Assembly (NCBI GenBank): GCA_947372795.1
Contig: CANBVC010000003.1
Location: 1 to 38,682 of the forward strand
Reading direction: 5' to 3'
Source of the DNA: Beijerinckiaceae bacterium
Lineage (GTDB): Bacteria; Pseudomonadota; Alphaproteobacteria; Rhizobiales; Beijerinckiaceae
Length of the DNA stretch: 38,682 bases
The position numbers and the translations under genes were made by a program. Each line of letters begins with the position of its first letter. The first letter of the stretch is position 1. Positions 13,764 through 24,579 of the stretch are shown here, piece after piece. A model generated the notes under the pieces. That model made no database searches, had not been told where the DNA came from, and worked only from the letters and a program-made list of their open reading frames with translations.

Positions 13764-14750
13764 ATGAGCGTGAAATCAAATTTTCTTGGGGCGGTCTGTA
13801 TGAGCGTTTTGGCTTTGGGCGGCCTCACGCTTTCGCCTGCCCATGCTCAGGATGCCTGGCCGACCAAGCGCGTCGTATTTGTGATCGGCTACGCGCCGGG
13901 AGGCTTCGCTGATAGCGTGGCGAGGATCATCGGCGCGAAACTCGGCGACACGCTGAACCAGCAGATCATCACGCAAAATATGGAAGGCGCAGGCGGCAAT
14001 ATCGCCGCGCGCCATGTCGCCACCACCCCGCCCGACGGCTACACGATCCTTGTCACCACCACGTCACTTGCCATCAACGACACGCTTTATAAAACGAAGG
14101 GCTTCTCCACCAAGGGCCTGATGCCGGTGGCGATGCCCGTCTCCGCACCTGAATCCTTCGCGTCCAATCCCAAGTCGAACGTCAAGTCGCTGGGCGATCT
14201 TCTTGCGCAGTCCAAGGCGGGCGAGACGGTCTATCTTGGCACACCGGGGATCGGCAGCGGCTCCCATCTGGCGGCGGAATATTTCTTCAAGGTTCTCGCC
14301 AAGGCCAATGTGAAGCACATTCCGTTTCCCGGCGGAGCGCCCGCAAAGCTTGGCCTTCTTGGAGGGGATGTGAGCGTCTTGTCGAGCACGGCGACGGCGG
14401 CGACGATCCCGGCCATGTTGAGCAAGGAGATCATCGGCCTTGCAGTCGCCAGCGCCGAGCGCGACCCTGCGATCCCCGATGTGCCCACATTTGCAGAACT
14501 GGGCTATCCCGGTTTTCTGGCGAGTTCCTGGACCGGGTTCTTCGCCCCCGACGGTACGCCCGAAGCTGTACTGACGAAGCTGAACGCGCAGATCAACGCG
14601 GCCCTCAAGGATCCGGAAGTGAAGGCGAAGATCGACGCCATGGGCCTCATCATAGCCAATCGCACGCAGCCCGAAACGCGCGCCTATTTCCAGTCTGAAA
14701 TCGCCAACTGGGCGAAGATGGTTGAAGCCTCCGGCGTCGCGGTGCCCTGA
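13764..14750 (+). CDS. Tripartite tricarboxylate transporter (Bug/TctC family) substrate-binding protein
   Basis: Signal peptide; WPTKRVVFVIGYAPGGFADSVARIIGAKLGDTLNQQIITQNMEGAGGNIAARHVATTPPDGYT. Confidence 0.93.
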   Translation: MSVKSNFLGAVCMSVLALGGLTLSPAHAQDAWPTKRVVFVIGYAPGGFADSVARIIGAKLGDTLNQQIITQNMEGAGGNIAARHVATTPPDGYTILVTTTSLAINDTLYKTKGFSTKGLMPVAMPVSAPESFASNPKSNVKSLGDLLAQSKAGETVYLGTPGIGSGSHLAAEYFFKVLAKANVKHIPFPGGAPAKLGLLGGDVSVLSSTATAATIPAMLSKEIIGLAVASAERDPAIPDVPTFAELGYPGFLASSWTGFFAPDGTPEAVLTKLNAQINAALKDPEVKAKIDAMGLIIANRTQPETRAYFQSEIANWAKMVEASGVAVP

Positions 14751-17329: not shown

Positions 17330-18172
17330 ATGCCCTTGTCTCACCCCGTTGATGCGCCCCTCATCGAGTTGAAGAACGTTCGATTCGGTTACGGCGAGCG
17401 CGTGGTGCTGGACGGGCTCGATCTCACCGTGCCGCGTGGGCAGATTCTCGCGGTCATGGGCGGGTCAGGAAACGGCAAAACCTCACTTCTTGGCCTTCTG
17501 GGCGGGCGCAATATCGCCTGGTCGGGCAGCGTCCGGGTCGAAGGACAGGACGTCGGAGGCCTCGATGGGTCCAGCCTTTACGCCCTGCGGCGGCGGATGG
17601 GCATGCTGTTCCAGTTCGGCGCCCTGTTCACCGACCTCAGCGTCTTCGACAACATCGCCTTTCCCTATCGTGAGCAAACCAATCTGCCCGAGACGGTGAT
17701 TCGCGACCTTGTGCTGATGAAGCTGGAGGCGGTGGGGCTGCGCGGCGCCGCTGCGTCCATGCCCTCGCAATTGTCCGGCGGCATGGCGCGCCGGGTGGCG
17801 CTCGCTCGGGCCATCGCGCTTGATCCCATGCTGATGCTCTATGATGAGCCCTTCACAGGGCTTGATCCCATTTCAGCGGGCATCATCGGTCGCCTGATCC
17901 GGCGTTTGAACGACGCTTTCGGCATGACCTCCCTCATCGTGACACATGATGTGAACGAAACCCTGCGAATCGCCGACCGCATCGTGCTGGTCTCTGATGG
18001 GCGTATCGTGCGCGACATTACGCCCCAGGAGGTCCGCGCCAGCGACGACCTCTTCATCAGACAGTTCGCCGACGGCCTGCCGGACGGGCCGGTGCCCTTC
18101 CACTATCCCGCCCCAGCCTATGCGCAGCAATTGCTGGGCGGGGCCGTTGGCGGAGGCGGCGCTCATGGTTGA
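17330..18172 (+). CDS. mlaF: Mla phospholipid transport ABC ATP-binding protein
   Basis: GGSGNGKTSLL Walker A variant, LSGGMARRVALARAIALDPMLMLYDEPFTGLDPIS; adjacent to mlaE and mlaD. Confidence 0.93.
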   Translation: MPLSHPVDAPLIELKNVRFGYGERVVLDGLDLTVPRGQILAVMGGSGNGKTSLLGLLGGRNIAWSGSVRVEGQDVGGLDGSSLYALRRRMGMLFQFGALFTDLSVFDNIAFPYREQTNLPETVIRDLVLMKLEAVGLRGAAASMPSQLSGGMARRVALARAIALDPMLMLYDEPFTGLDPISAGIIGRLIRRLNDAFGMTSLIVTHDVNETLRIADRIVLVSDGRIVRDITPQEVRASDDLFIRQFADGLPDGPVPFHYPAPAYAQQLLGGAVGGGGAHG

Positions 18173-18950
18173 TTTCTTCGAAAGGCTCGGCGCCCTCACC
18201 TTGAGCGTTCTGGCGCGGCTCGGGCTTGCGACGCTGTTCTTTGGAGCCGTTTTCGCCCGCATGGCTCAGGGGGCGAAGCGGGGCGCCCTGCTGGTGCGCG
18301 AGATTCACTTCGCCGGCGTTCGCTCCCTCGCCATCATCCTCGTTTCCGGCCTGTTCGTTGGCATGGTGCTGGCGGTGCAGGGATATGAAGTCCTCCAAAG
18401 ATTCGGCTCGGCCGACGCGCTCGGCTCCCTTGTCGCGCTTTCTCTTGTGCGGGAATTGGGGCCGGTTGTGGCGGCGCTGCTCTTCGCAGGCCGTGCGGGG
18501 TCTGCTGTGACGGCGGAAATTGGCCTGATGCGCGCCACCGAGCAGCTGGCCGCAATGGACATGATGGCGGTGGACCCGATTTCCCGGGTCATCGTGCCTC
18601 GCTTCATGGCTGCGCTGGTGTCGCTACCCATCCTGGCGGTGATTTTTTCGAGCGCGGGCGTCATCGGCGCCTATCTCGTGGGCGTCGAACTGATCGGCAT
18701 CGACGCCGGGGCTTTCTGGTCGCAGATGCGCGCCAGCGTCGATTTCCGCCTTGATGTGCTCAATGGCCTGTTCAAGGCGCTGGTTTTTGGCGTTGCGGTG
18801 GGGCTGATCTCCGTATTTGAAGGCTATCATGCCGCGCCGACCGCCGAAGGCGTTTCGAGCGCCACCACCCGCACGGTGGTGATCTCCTCCCTAAGCGTGC
18901 TAACGCTCGACTTTATATTGACCGTCCTGATGTTTAGGGGGCTGAATTGA
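18165..18950 (+). CDS. mlaE: Mla ABC transporter permease
   Basis: MVDFFERLGALTLSVLARLG...; LVALSLVRELGPVVAALLFAGRAGSAVTAEIGLMRATEQLAAMDMMAVDP. ORF track over-extends upstream to 17997. Confidence 0.95.
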   Translation: MVDFFERLGALTLSVLARLGLATLFFGAVFARMAQGAKRGALLVREIHFAGVRSLAIILVSGLFVGMVLAVQGYEVLQRFGSADALGSLVALSLVRELGPVVAALLFAGRAGSAVTAEIGLMRATEQLAAMDMMAVDPISRVIVPRFMAALVSLPILAVIFSSAGVIGAYLVGVELIGIDAGAFWSQMRASVDFRLDVLNGLFKALVFGVAVGLISVFEGYHAAPTAEGVSSATTRTVVISSLSVLTLDFILTVLMFRGLN

Positions 18951-19423
18951 TGAACCGCTCCAAAACCAACGTCGCCGTCGGCGCCTTCGTGGCTCTAGGC
19001 ATTGTCGCGCTTGCGTTTATGGCGCTCAAAGTTGGCAACCTCGTCAGTTTCGACAGCGCCGAGGGGTACCGGCTCGAGGCTCGCTTCGACAATATTGGCG
19101 GCTTGAGGGTGCGTGCGCCGGTCAAGAGCGCGGGGGTCGTCGTCGGGCGGGTGGAAGACATCCGTCTCGACCGCGACACTTATGAGGCGGTCGCTCAATT
19201 GCGGATCCGCCCCGAATATCGTTTCTCCGCCGATACGATAGGCGCGATCGTGACCTCTGGGCTGCTCGGGGAGCAATACTTAAGCTTAGACGCGGGCGGA
19301 GATTCACTATATCTTAAAGATGGTGAACGAATTATCAAAACCCAGTCAGCGATAGTCCTCGAGAAGCTGATCGGGCAATTCCTGTATAATAAAGCTGCGG
19401 AAAGTTCTGGAGATAAAAAATGA
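18950..19423 (+). CDS. mlaD: Mla MCE-domain lipid-binding protein
   Basis: NVAVGAFVALGIVALAFMALKVGNL; FDNIGGLRVRAPVKSAGVVVGRVEDI; TSGLLGEQYLSLD. Confidence 0.95.
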   Translation: MNRSKTNVAVGAFVALGIVALAFMALKVGNLVSFDSAEGYRLEARFDNIGGLRVRAPVKSAGVVVGRVEDIRLDRDTYEAVAQLRIRPEYRFSADTIGAIVTSGLLGEQYLSLDAGGDSLYLKDGERIIKTQSAIVLEKLIGQFLYNKAAESSGDKK

Positions 19424-20130
19424 TTCGATCCTTGCGTCCGGCGCTCTTGGCCGTCAGCCTGTTCGCGGGGCTTGGCCTTTCCTCCGTCGCCTGCGCCCAG
19501 AGCCCTGTCGCCCATAATGATCCGATTGAGCCGATCAATCGGGGCTTTTTCGCCGTGAACGAAGCGCTCGATACAGTTATCTTCAAGCCTGTCGCGACGG
19601 TCTGGAACACAGTCCTGCCCCAGCCCGTGCGCGCTAGTGTGAGCAACGTGTTCGGCAATCTCGACGATGTCTTCATCGGCGCCAATCACTTGCTGCAGGG
19701 ACGCGGCAAGGACGCCATGACCGATTTTTCGCGCGTCCTGATCAATTCGACCGTGGGCCTGGCTGGCCTCATCGATGTCGCATCGACCCAGAACCTTCCG
19801 AAGGGTGAGGGCGATTTTGGCCAGACGCTTGGCGTCTGGGGCGCTGAGCCAGGCTTCTATATGGTCCTGCCGCTCCTTGGTCCCTCGACGGCTCGCGATA
19901 CTGTTGGCCGGGCGGCTCGCGTCGTCTCCGATCCGCGCTACTATCTGGCCGACGCTTGGTACTACAGCCTAACCGGCCTCGAATTCGTCCAGATTAAGGC
20001 TGACAATGTCGATAATGCGAATCTGATCGACACATCGAGCCTCGATAAATATGCCTTCACCCGCAATCTCTATCTCCAGCGCCGCGCCGCTGTCGTCCAA
20101 TCCGGTCGGGAGGCGGCGGGCGCGCGCTGA
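19420..20130 (+). CDS. mlaA: MlaA (VacJ) family protein
   Basis: DPIEPINRGFFAVNEALDTVIFKPVA; RVLINSTVGLAGLIDVAS; GDFGQTLGVWGAEPGFYMVLPLLGPSTARDTVGR. ATGA overlap with mlaD. Confidence 0.95.
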   Translation: MIRSLRPALLAVSLFAGLGLSSVACAQSPVAHNDPIEPINRGFFAVNEALDTVIFKPVATVWNTVLPQPVRASVSNVFGNLDDVFIGANHLLQGRGKDAMTDFSRVLINSTVGLAGLIDVASTQNLPKGEGDFGQTLGVWGAEPGFYMVLPLLGPSTARDTVGRAARVVSDPRYYLADAWYYSLTGLEFVQIKADNVDNANLIDTSSLDKYAFTRNLYLQRRAAVVQSGREAAGAR

Positions 20131-20152: not shown

Positions 20153-20740
20153 ATGTTGCGTATTGTATTTTCGCTTGGTCTCCTTTTCGCCTGCATAGCT
20201 CCCGCTCAAGCGCAGAACGCCGCCGCCGAGGATCTCGTGCGGCGCATGGCGGCAGAGGTCACCATGCAGGTTCGCAAGAATCCTGAGGTTGTGAATTCTC
20301 CGTCCCAACTGGCGGCGCTGGTCGACCAGCGCCTCATGCCACGCTTTGATTTCAACCGAATCACCCAGATGGCCATGGGCCGCAACTGGCCCAGAGCCTC
20401 GGGCGGCGAACAGGGCCAGGTGACGGCTGAGTTCAGCAAATTGCTTGTCCGCACCTATTCGAACGCTCTCGCCGGCCTTAAGGACCTCGACGTACAGGTG
20501 CGCGATTCGCGCTCCAACAGCGCCGCTGACGTCACGGTTCGCACTCAGATGATCGGACGCGCCAAGCCTGTGGCGATCGATTACACCTTGTCGAACGCTA
20601 CGGGCGGCTGGCGCGTCTATGACGTGACCGTCGAGGGCGTGAGCCTCATCACCGCCTATCGCGATGAATTCAACGGCATCGTTGGTTCCTCCGGCGTGCC
20701 GGGACTGATCGCCGTCTTGAAGCAGAAGAACGCGAAATGA
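20153..20740 (+). CDS. mlaC: MlaC/Ttg2D family periplasmic lipid-binding protein
   Basis: Signal peptide MLRIVFSLGLLFACIAPAQAQ; RLMPRFDFNRITQMAMGRNW; LLVRTYSNAL; WRVYDVTVEGVSLITAYRDEFNGIV. Confidence 0.94.
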   Translation: MLRIVFSLGLLFACIAPAQAQNAAAEDLVRRMAAEVTMQVRKNPEVVNSPSQLAALVDQRLMPRFDFNRITQMAMGRNWPRASGGEQGQVTAEFSKLLVRTYSNALAGLKDLDVQVRDSRSNSAADVTVRTQMIGRAKPVAIDYTLSNATGGWRVYDVTVEGVSLITAYRDEFNGIVGSSGVPGLIAVLKQKNAK

Positions 20741-21054
20741 CCAGCGCGACCGCCGCCCTAGCCCATGACATCAGCGACGGCGCGCATCATGTCAGGCTCA
20801 GCGGCGTTCTAACGATGGATAGCGTCAGCGACCTGTGCACCCGGCTCAAACCTTTGAATGGCGGCGGGGTTCTTGTGCTCGACGCCACCGCCGTCACCAG
20901 AGCTGATTCAAGCGCGCTCGCCTTGATGACCTCTCTCATGCGTCAGGCCCACGAGCGCGACATGCGCGTCGATCTGAAACCCCTGCCGCAAGCCTTCTCC
21001 GCCATCATTGAGCTCTACGGGCTCCACAACATCCTGTCCGCGCGCGAGGCGTAA
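20737..21054 (+). CDS. mlaB: STAS-domain protein (MlaB-like)
   Basis: Small STAS fold: VRLSGVLTMDSVSDLCTRL...GGGVLVLDATAVTRADSSALALMTSLMRQA; ATGA overlap with mlaC. Confidence 0.85.
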   Translation: MTSATAALAHDISDGAHHVRLSGVLTMDSVSDLCTRLKPLNGGGVLVLDATAVTRADSSALALMTSLMRQAHERDMRVDLKPLPQAFSAIIELYGLHNILSAREA

Positions 21055-21089
21055 GCCATGGTCGAGATCGCCACTGAGGGAGGGTGTCG

Positions 21090-22409
21090 ATGAAAGCTTT
21101 GTCAGCTGCGACCCTATTCCTCAGCATGGTGAGTCTTATGGGCTCGAGCGCCGCTCTTGGCGATGAGACGCCGGTCAAAGGCTCCGCCAGCGCCATTTGG
21201 GGTGAGCGCGCGCAGGGCAAGACCTATCGTATCGCCGAGGACGTGGAGATCGACGGCGTCCATCGCAAATATGTTCTGGAAACAAGCGCAGGCAAATTCA
21301 CCATTGTCAGCGATGCGCTCATGGCCGTGCGGCTGCACGAATACGCCGTCCTGGAGCAATTGAACGACAATACGGGACTGGGACAATTCATTCAGTCCTT
21401 TGGTTCCTCCGCCATCGCCCCGCTGAGGTTCGGCGGGCAGCTCATCATCAGCCCGATCGAGACCACCAAACAATCGGCGGAGGGGATCGGTAATTTTTTT
21501 GATTCGCTCTCAACCTCGTCAGAGAACAAGGACTCCGAGCGCGGCAGCTTTATGGGCGGAGTTTTGGGCACCGACAGCGCCCGGCGTGAACTTGCGGCGC
21601 AGGCGCTGATCGACCCCTATACCGACTTCCCACCCCTCGCTAAACGCCTGCAGGAGCTTGCGGCGGCGCGCGGCGTCGGCAGTCTTTCCGTGCGTGGCGC
21701 CATGATGGCGGTTCCGGGCGGCGCGGCCCTGCCCTCCCTGACCGTGAACACCACGCGCACCGTCATGTTCAGCGCCTCATCGGTCGGCGCCGCTCAGGGC
21801 CTTCAGGAGGCCCTGCGCACCAAGACGGCGGGCCAGATCATGCGCGACTGCCGCGAAAAGCTCACCGCGCTGACAGGCGACGGCGAGCTCGTCGATTCCC
21901 TCTTGAGCAATAAAAATTATACGCCTGCGGATCTGCTCGTGATCGCTTTGGCGCTGGAGCAGACCGGCGTAAAAGATGCTGACGCCATCATACGCCAGAG
22001 CAGCAGCGCGCAAGACCGCACCACCGCCTATCTCAATCGCCAGCAGGCGGAAATGTATGCGGGCCTGCGACGTTCTTTCGCCTTTGACCGTTTTCTCGCC
22101 AAAGATGGTTTTGTGATCATGGTCCTGCGGGATCATCGCCACCTTGTGGCCCTGCCTGCCGACCAGCTTTTCTGGACGACGAAGAACAAGCAGGACATCA
22201 GCGCATTGAACGCCAGCCTTGCGTCGGAGAAGCCCGCCGGCGGCAAGCCCGGCATCGACAAAGTGATGGTCATAACGGGCGATTATTCGAAAATGGCGCG
22301 TGGAGAACTCGCCAAGCTTCAATGGGAAGCCGCGCGTATGACCCTGACCGCCGGTCTTGTAAGCGATCAAAAGCCTGCCCCAAAGCAGGCTAAACCCGCA
22401 GCTCGATGA
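21090..22409 (+). CDS. Uncharacterised exported protein encoded at the 3' end of the mla gene cluster
   Basis: Signal peptide MKALSAATLFLSMVSLMGSSAALG; no enzymatic motif recognised; RRELAAQALIDPYTDFPPLAKRLQELAAARGVG segment. SD GGGAGGG before ATG 21090. Confidence 0.85.
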   Translation: MKALSAATLFLSMVSLMGSSAALGDETPVKGSASAIWGERAQGKTYRIAEDVEIDGVHRKYVLETSAGKFTIVSDALMAVRLHEYAVLEQLNDNTGLGQFIQSFGSSAIAPLRFGGQLIISPIETTKQSAEGIGNFFDSLSTSSENKDSERGSFMGGVLGTDSARRELAAQALIDPYTDFPPLAKRLQELAAARGVGSLSVRGAMMAVPGGAALPSLTVNTTRTVMFSASSVGAAQGLQEALRTKTAGQIMRDCREKLTALTGDGELVDSLLSNKNYTPADLLVIALALEQTGVKDADAIIRQSSSAQDRTTAYLNRQQAEMYAGLRRSFAFDRFLAKDGFVIMVLRDHRHLVALPADQLFWTTKNKQDISALNASLASEKPAGGKPGIDKVMVITGDYSKMARGELAKLQWEAARMTLTAGLVSDQKPAPKQAKPAAR

Positions 22410-22425: not shown

Positions 22426-23451
22426 TTACTTTGACGGACCCTCAATTAGTTGCTTAGCCCGTGCGATGACGCTCGGCGGCATGCTGAGCATGGATGCGGC
22501 GACCTTCTGCGCCTCCTCGCCACTGGAGGGCGCGATCTCCATCTGCGCCTTATCGGTCTCGGCGATGAAAGCCGGGTCGCGGAGCATGTCCTGAAAGGCT
22601 TTTCGCAGGGCCTCCACACGTTCGGGCGGCGCGCCCGGCGTCGTGGCGATGGCGCGCGCTATGCCCATGTCCGACGACAGGAACTGGAGAACCTGCCTGT
22701 CCTCCTCATTGGTGGCGAGTTCATGCATGAGCGGGATGTCGGGGAGATCCGGCGCGCGTTTGAGCGCGATCTGCACGAGGATGCGGATCTTCTTCTCGGC
22801 GATCCAATGGGGATGGCCGCTCTTCCACGAGGCCCAGCTATTGGAGCCACGCCCGCCGACCTCGCCCTTCTCCATGGCGAGATTGATTTCATTGCCGCCG
22901 GGATAGCCGCCAACGATCTTGAATTTCGTGCCCAGCAGGGCGTTCATCGCGGCGGGATAAACATAACCGCCTGAACCCGTGCCGGAGGCGCCGACGACAA
23001 GCTCCTGATGATAGACCTGCTCAATCTTCGTGACGCCGCTCGCATGCCAGGAGTTTATGACATTAGGGCCATCGGTCGTATTGCCTATCCAGTTGAAGGC
23101 GCGCACGTCGAACTGGATCCCGGGCGATCCTATGGCTTGCAGAATCGGCATGTTCTGAAAGACCATGGTGATGACGGAGCCATCGCGCGCCGCCGCATTA
23201 GCGAGGTGATTGCCCGCTGCGATCCCGATGCCACCCGGCATATTTCGCACCACGATCTGTGGCTGGCCGGGGATATGTTTGCCCAAATGACGCGCGACCA
23301 TGCGCGCGCGCAGATCATAATCGCCGCCCGGCGAGCCGGGGACTGTGAAATCGATGGTGCGGCCCCGATAAAAATCGGCGACCGCGTCTGCGAGGGCGGC
23401 GCAGGGCGCTAACGCTGCAAGCAAGGCGACGGCGACGACGGATCTGCGCAT
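22426..23451 (-). CDS. Tripartite tricarboxylate transporter (Bug family) substrate-binding protein
   Basis: Signal peptide; DFYRGRTIDFTVPGSPGGDYDLRARMVARHLGKHIPGQPQIVVRNMPGGIGIAAGNHLANAA. Confidence 0.88.
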   Translation of the reverse strand: MRRSVVAVALLAALAPCAALADAVADFYRGRTIDFTVPGSPGGDYDLRARMVARHLGKHIPGQPQIVVRNMPGGIGIAAGNHLANAAARDGSVITMVFQNMPILQAIGSPGIQFDVRAFNWIGNTTDGPNVINSWHASGVTKIEQVYHQELVVGASGTGSGGYVYPAAMNALLGTKFKIVGGYPGGNEINLAMEKGEVGGRGSNSWASWKSGHPHWIAEKKIRILVQIALKRAPDLPDIPLMHELATNEEDRQVLQFLSSDMGIARAIATTPGAPPERVEALRKAFQDMLRDPAFIAETDKAQMEIAPSSGEEAQKVAASMLSMPPSVIARAKQLIEGPSK

Positions 23452-23526: not shown

Positions 23527-24579
23527 TCAGTTCGGCAGAAGAATCTTGGCCATGCGCGCGCGCACGTCCTGCGGCGTTTTGGCCGCTTCCGCGATGACCG
23601 CGCTGACCGCATCTCCATCGATGGGGCTGATCAGGAAACCAGCCTTCAGCATTTCCTCGCGAAAACCTGCGTCCGTCGCCATTTTCATGAAAGCAGTCTT
23701 CAAAATCTTCGCCCGGTCGGCGGGAATATTCGGGGGCGCCGCGAAGGGAAGGGCCATGAAGAAGGGGCTCTCGGCGAATTCAAGCAGAGCCCGATCTTCG
23801 GGCTTGCTGACGAGTTCGCGTCCGACCGGCACATCGGGCAGAGCCGCAAGGCGCGTCTTGCGACCGAACTGGACCAGAACGCGCAGCTTATTCTCGCGCC
23901 ACAGATTAGGCCTTCCCGACATGATGGCGCTGAGGTCGATCACCTGCCCGTCGATTTCTCCCCTTTCCATGGCGAGCCAGATATCATTGGCGCCGGGAAA
24001 GCCTCGGACTTCGGCGATGTTCATGCCAAGTAGGTCGCGCGCCAGCAGCGCGAAGGTAGTGTTGGTGGCGCCGACGCCCACGCCCGCGAGATGCACGGCT
24101 TTGGCTCCCCGCATATCCTCGATGCTGCGCGCCCAATGGGACGCGTTCACGACAAGGAAATAACCATCGTCGTCAAAGGACGACAGGCTGCCGAGCCATG
24201 TGAGCTTCGCCGGATCGAAACTGACATTGGGGTCGCCGACCATGGCGAGCTGAGGAATGCCGCGACTGACCGAGGCGATGGTGAGCCCATCCTTCTCCAC
24301 TGTCGTGGCCAGACGATTGGCGCCGGTGATGCCGCCTCCGCCGGGAAGGTTCTGCACCACCATCTGGGGATGGCCGGGAATGAAGTCCGGCATCATGCGC
24401 GCGACGATGCGGGCTGAAAGGTCATAGATGCCGCCCGGGGAGAAGGGCACGATGAGCTGCATCGTCTTGCCGCGATAAAAATCGGTCGGCTCTTGCGCCT
24501 GCGCGGCGGGGGCTGCGAGCATCAGTCCTGCGAGAGCCAGGCCGCGCCCCACAGATGCAAACCCATCCAAGATCGTCAT
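23527..24579 (-). CDS. Tripartite tricarboxylate transporter (Bug family) substrate-binding protein
   Basis: Signal peptide; DFYRGKTMQLIVPFSPGGIYDLSARIVARMMPDFIPGHPQMVVQNLPGGGGITGANRLATT; related to its downstream neighbour. Confidence 0.9.
   Translation of the reverse strand: MTILDGFASVGRGLALAGLMLAAPAAQAQEPTDFYRGKTMQLIVPFSPGGIYDLSARIVARMMPDFIPGHPQMVVQNLPGGGGITGANRLATTVEKDGLTIASVSRGIPQLAMVGDPNVSFDPAKLTWLGSLSSFDDDGYFLVVNASHWARSIEDMRGAKAVHLAGVGVGATNTTFALLARDLLGMNIAEVRGFPGANDIWLAMERGEIDGQVIDLSAIMSGRPNLWRENKLRVLVQFGRKTRLAALPDVPVGRELVSKPEDRALLEFAESPFFMALPFAAPPNIPADRAKILKTAFMKMATDAGFREEMLKAGFLISPIDGDAVSAVIAEAAKTPQDVRARMAKILLPN

Follow-up and report, generated by a model that had tools for sequence, protein, structure and literature searches.

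The window, by which we mean the whole analysed stretch of 38,682 nucleotides, carries on its plus strand a complete mlaF-E-D-A-C-B operon, confirmed by Pfam and NCBIfam models, and as the last gene of that operon an open reading frame for an exported 439-aa protein of an undescribed family (21090..22409, plus strand, with ATG at 21090 and TGA at 22409). The plus-strand genes before it encode the ABC ATPase MlaF (17330..18172; PF00005 at 5e-26, and the NCBIfam MlaF model at 3e-99, which is below the cut-off of that model), the permease MlaE (18165..18950; PF02405 at 4e-73, NF033619 over its cut-off), the short MCE protein MlaD of 157 aa (18950..19423; PF02470, TIGR04430 over its cut-off), MlaA (19420..20130; PF04333 at 6e-70), MlaC (20153..20740; PF05494 at 3e-44) and the STAS protein MlaB (20737..21054; PF13466 at 3e-17, and NF033618 at 1e-8, below its cut-off). 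An earlier note had described the Mla genes as tightly coupled, and this is the case: mlaE and mlaD overlap by TGATG (18948-18952), mlaD and mlaA by ATGA (at 19420) and mlaC and mlaB by ATGA (at 20737), but mlaA and mlaC are separated by a gap of 22 nt. The same note had placed the 439-aa reading frame after mlaB, and its coordinates, its strand, the gap of 35 nt to the mlaB stop (21054) and a good Shine-Dalgarno sequence all hold. The probable Shine-Dalgarno sequence, read from the DNA as GGAGGG about 7 nt before the ATG, lies at 21077..21083 (plus strand). Between mlaB and the reading frame no promoter-like or terminator-like site was found on the plus strand, in a scan that overall returned no more sites than expected by chance and that is weak evidence.

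The signal sequence of MlaA (19420-20130) ends in SSVACAQ, and since this is not a canonical lipobox, the lipidation of MlaA is uncertain. For MlaC (20153-20740), the E. coli MlaC model gives 62 bits and the hopanoid-associated HpnM model more, 96 bits against a cut-off of 160; both scores are below cut-off. Three genes for TctC-type (Bug) periplasmic receptors or their relatives flank the Mla operon, one at 13764-14750 and two on the minus strand at 22426-23451 and 23527-24579.

The reading frame at 21090-22409 is coding and conserved, with close orthologues that are 58-89% identical to its product. Its first 25 residues (21090..21164, plus strand) form the signal peptide region recognised by the earlier note; hydropathy, with KD up to 1.48 at residues 5-23, and sequence agree on this. 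As judged from this signal peptide, which has no lipobox, the protein is exported, periplasmic and non-lipidated; a lipobox is present in two distant homologues (L025 and L066). When the protein is compared with Pfam, NCBIfam and the sequences of the PDB, as a single sequence and as a profile, there is no match in Pfam or the PDB and no meaningful one in NCBIfam, and the same is true for its homologues. From this follows that it is neither a core component of Mla (MlaA-F), none of the Mla models in Pfam or NCBIfam being matched, nor a member of any family named there, so that the HMM search proposed in the earlier note leaves it undescribed. Because neither Pfam nor NCBIfam has an entry for the family, it has been overlooked in annotation. 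Two further assignments were rejected: DUF4112, matched by one family member at E = 0.059, which was taken as chance, and a lipase-specific foldase, since the Pfam lipase-chaperone family is unmatched by the protein and its homologues.

Structure prediction, also proposed earlier, yields a model with two domains and with low-confidence amphipathic and hydrophobic linkers, on which two AlphaFold2 runs agree (pTM 0.74 and 0.76). The confident parts are a small N-terminal alpha/beta domain at residues 26-91 (21165..21362, plus strand; pLDDT ~84-96), a helix at the invariant DPYT block, and the C-terminal domain at residues 230-419 (21777..22346, plus strand), which is predicted very confidently (pLDDT mostly 95-98). 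The low-confidence parts, residues 102-149 and 200-223, lie between the confident domains. Residues 102-149 (21393..21536, plus strand; pLDDT < 50) are predicted to form two amphipathic helices around the invariant P122, with a hydrophobic moment of 0.42-0.47 that is similar in the family, and residues 199-223 (21684..21758, plus strand; pLDDT 32-39) make up a conserved, Gly-rich hydrophobic segment with PGG, whose best 19-residue KD is 1.15, the values for 30 homologues being 0.87-1.98. The amphipathic and hydrophobic properties are kept across the 30 homologues. The most conserved block of all, ARRELAAQALIDPYTDFPPLAKRLQELAAARGVG (residues ~164-197; 21579..21680, plus strand), has R166, D175, Y177, L183 and G197 each conserved in at least 90% of 48 sequences, and the segment LAAQALIDPYTDFPPLAKRLQELAAARGVG pointed out in the earlier note is present as part of it; the K/P/A-rich C-terminal tail is there as well, but limited to close orthologues. 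The simplest reading of this architecture is probably that of a periplasmic protein that touches the membrane, the proposed membrane-contact parts being those that coincide with the low-confidence parts of the model.

In the genus of the window the gene lies directly 3' of mlaB in eight of the nine genomes that have it, with orthologues after mlaB on the same strand at the loci L016, L017, L018, L019, L020, L021 and L152, where the contig of L019 ends within mlaB. Between some of these genomes the flanking genes other than mla vary, and the position after mlaB is constant. The gene of genome G036 is on a contig cut inside mlaB, and in G025 the copy is partial, divergent (38%) and at the end of a contig, with no mla nearby. 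A count over 51 genomes of the genus gives 8 with an MlaC of whatever kind, 9 with the gene and 7 with both, so that their co-occurrence has a Fisher p of 2.4e-6 when shared ancestry is ignored; one genome of the genus, G014, has mlaFEDACB and no trace of the gene. The pairwise divergence of the 439-aa protein runs parallel to that of MlaE, MlaD, MlaA and MlaC (Mantel r = 0.97, p = 0.0004). Selection on the gene is purifying, with dN 0.075 and dS 0.85 (dN/dS ~0.09) for the closest pair, G000-G028, where G000 is the genome of the window, and dN 0.10 and dS 0.75 for G000-G033; the two close pairs thus span a dN/dS of ~0.09-0.14, and the more diverged pair G005-G036 has dN 0.23 and dS 0.95. From linkage, co-occurrence, co-divergence and purifying selection taken together follows that the operon and the gene are inherited largely as one unit in this genus.

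Outside the genus, profile searches find homologues at 20-38% identity, and family matches, with the window genome counted, occur at the level of the order in 17 of 298 genomes, of the class in 15 of 385 and of the phylum in 7 of 399. None of about 40 distant homologues in Pseudomonadota has an mla operon beside it, a tblastn search with the Mla proteins of the window found no mla operon beside 23 distant homologues, and phmmer near a larger set of homologues returned generic ABC ATPases only. The linkage to mla is confined to the genus of the window. In the earlier note, orthologues unlinked to mla elsewhere would have counted against a role in Mla, and a survey of gene neighbourhoods was proposed: the linkage is there for all eight orthologues of the genus, but not for the ~40 distant homologues, so that it fails for the wider family and not for the orthologues.

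What does lie beside the distant homologues is in several cases a lipid gene. A patatin phospholipase gene is found 18 bp downstream of the homologue at L056 and 64 bp upstream at L130, an LCAT-like lipase gene directly downstream at L121 and L122, fabI 7 bp upstream at L121, accA at 87 bp at L072, and a class-3 lipase (Lipase_3) gene two genes upstream at L023. At L071 (genome G366) genes for a LolA-like and an MMPL protein follow the homologue, and PqiA, PqiA and PqiB, the latter with three MlaD-type domains, are encoded divergently. This locus is like the window in that a member of the family adjoins an MCE lipid-transport system, but transcription is divergent, the MCE family is another one, and the homologue is only ~24% identical to the 439-aa protein. 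Among 454 neighbour genes, relatives of the lipase type account for 6 of 221 at distance 1-3 and for 0 of 233 at distance 4-9, and when the Pfam scans are pooled, LCAT and patatin each occur twice in 112 near genes and are absent from the families given for 92 far genes, a listing that would miss single weak matches. That distant homologues are unusually often beside lipid genes is suggestive only, because the categories were picked after inspection of the data, the queries of the distance control were drawn from the near genes, and L121 and L122 come from one bacterial family. These neighbours suggest a wider lipid role, which Mla would have recruited in the genus of the window.

The reading we favour, with a probability of roughly 0.45, is a periplasmic, membrane-bound accessory in lipid handling, which serves Mla in the genus of the window and other lipid enzymes elsewhere; as such, the 439-aa protein is a plausible candidate for a new envelope-lipid factor. 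Membrane binding, contact with a partner, an effect on lipid transport and involvement in Mla are all things we infer. The amphipathic helices and the Gly-rich hydrophobic segment would bind to the face of a membrane, and the folded N- and C-terminal domains could then make contact with a partner that handles lipids. In the Beijerinckiaceae genus of the window, the mlaFEDACB operon would have recruited the protein as a seventh product, which may help phospholipids to pass among the membrane, MlaA/MlaC and MlaFEDB, or may stabilise or regulate their transfer. Elsewhere, a protein of the same kind might serve patatin or LCAT-type lipases and PqiAB. The accessory role in Mla that the earlier note had put forward thus survives in part: the position after mlaB in all eight genus orthologues, the co-occurrence with MlaC, the co-divergence, the export signal and the features for membrane interaction speak for it, while the lack of mla linkage outside the genus and the operon of G014 speak against it.

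The same two observations are what the main rival would explain, namely that the protein is a general envelope-lipid protein, for instance one that assists a lipase or binds fatty acids or lysolipids, and that its tie to Mla is one of shared expression only. Such a protein could have homologues that adjoin patatin, LCAT, Lipase_3, fabI and accA and never mla, and an mla operon could exist without it, but in the genus it has long been linked to mla, occurs together with it and diverges with it, which makes this reading somewhat unlikely. Less likely than this, and quite improbable in itself, is a passenger, i.e., an exported protein with an unrelated envelope function, fixed behind mlaB by chance. 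It would fit the patchy distribution in the order and the unrelated neighbours at many distant loci (pckA, rplU/rpmA, secA and folC), but all eight orthologues hold their position while other flanking genes change, and several of the lipid-gene neighbours are independent. The neighbours folC/accD, pckA and rplU/rpmA are conserved in some families; they were taken as lineage synteny and left out of the functional links. Plasmid records contain one homologue, annotated 'hypothetical protein', and none of its ten listed neighbours is lipid-related.

In its last part, the C-terminal domain arranges strands and helices in the order alpha-beta-beta-beta-alpha-beta, as in PD-(D/E)XK folds, and the Foldseek matches, which were placed on this domain by strand order, are to NucS/EndoMS (prob 0.95-0.97), Card1, MspJI, RPB5 and Mrr-type proteins, all with E of at least 0.004. 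In the third strand (D/E)xK is not conserved, the pattern occurring in 5 of 48 sequences; D358 is invariant and W362 is found in 94% of the 48. A profile comparison with Mrr gave no similarity (prob 9%), although the frame was wrong for two of the 13 Mrr sequences, which weakens the test somewhat. A catalytic PD-(D/E)XK nuclease, which would require a conserved catalytic D...(D/E)xK, is rejected, and the protein indeed has no recognised catalytic motif, as the earlier note had it. With the PD-(D/E)XK / Mrr / NucS / RPB5-N fold it shares the order of secondary structure and the weak Foldseek matches, but it differs in lacking the catalytic motif and sequence similarity and in being exported, so the resemblance may offer a weak lead on ancestry, not on function. 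An exported nuclease or nucleic-acid-binding protein, as the fold matches of the C-terminal domain could suggest, is very improbable when no match reaches E <= 0.001, (D/E)xK and Mrr profile similarity are missing, the protein is exported and its homologues have lipid genes as neighbours.

The way in which phospholipids travel between the membranes of Gram-negative bacteria is still debated, and so is the direction in which Mla works. With the six-component Mla system of E. coli and other Proteobacteria (MlaFEDB, MlaC and MlaA) the window operon has all six genes, a short MlaD and the operon logic in common, but here the operon includes mlaA and has after mlaB a gene for a seventh exported protein, one to which no Mla counterpart is known. 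MlaEFD is the core, to which MlaABC was added late and mostly in Proteobacteria, and the short MlaD is atypical (PMC10665443). In Brucella and other Hyphomicrobiales, MCE lipid transport is commonly by Mpc, a Mla-Pqi chimera with a long MpcD, and the available part of that work mentions no extra protein like the 439-aa one (PMC12436622). Mpc is an MCE system of the same order, whereas the window operon has MlaC and MlaA and is of the type with a short MlaD. The genome of the window has three MlaE-type loci, the window operon, L153 (contig C14) and L154 (contig C109), and L154, whose MlaE carries a fused STAS-like region and which also encodes an ABC ATPase and an MCE protein of 392 aa, resembles Mpc by this long, MpcD-like MCE protein. 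Since Hyphomicrobiales commonly use Mpc and three MlaE-type loci are present, the Mla operon with the gene is a patchy, additional lipid system in the genus. In a literature search, no report of additional genes after mlaB turned up. If the proposed accessory role is correct, a seventh exported component in a natural variant of Mla, belonging to a family found repeatedly next to lipases and other lipid machines, would give a new handle on the hand-over of lipids in the periplasm. A wider version, which we regard as doubtful, would make the protein the first example of a family, widespread and so far undescribed, of membrane-bound lipid-handling partners in the periplasm, whose nuclease-like domain has been repurposed and is catalytically empty; the lipid machine that such a protein works with would differ between bacteria (Mla, PqiAB, patatin/LCAT), and here it would be the seventh working component of Mla.

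The gene fabI, which usually has few copies per genome, occurs within ~6 genes of a homologue in three bacterial families (L068, L113, L121, L122 and L056), and this looks commoner than expected for a few-copy gene. Genome G698 has four paralogues of the family (L114, L115, L117 and L119), and DUF3313 genes lie upstream of two homologues, at L115 and, in a different genome, at L116.
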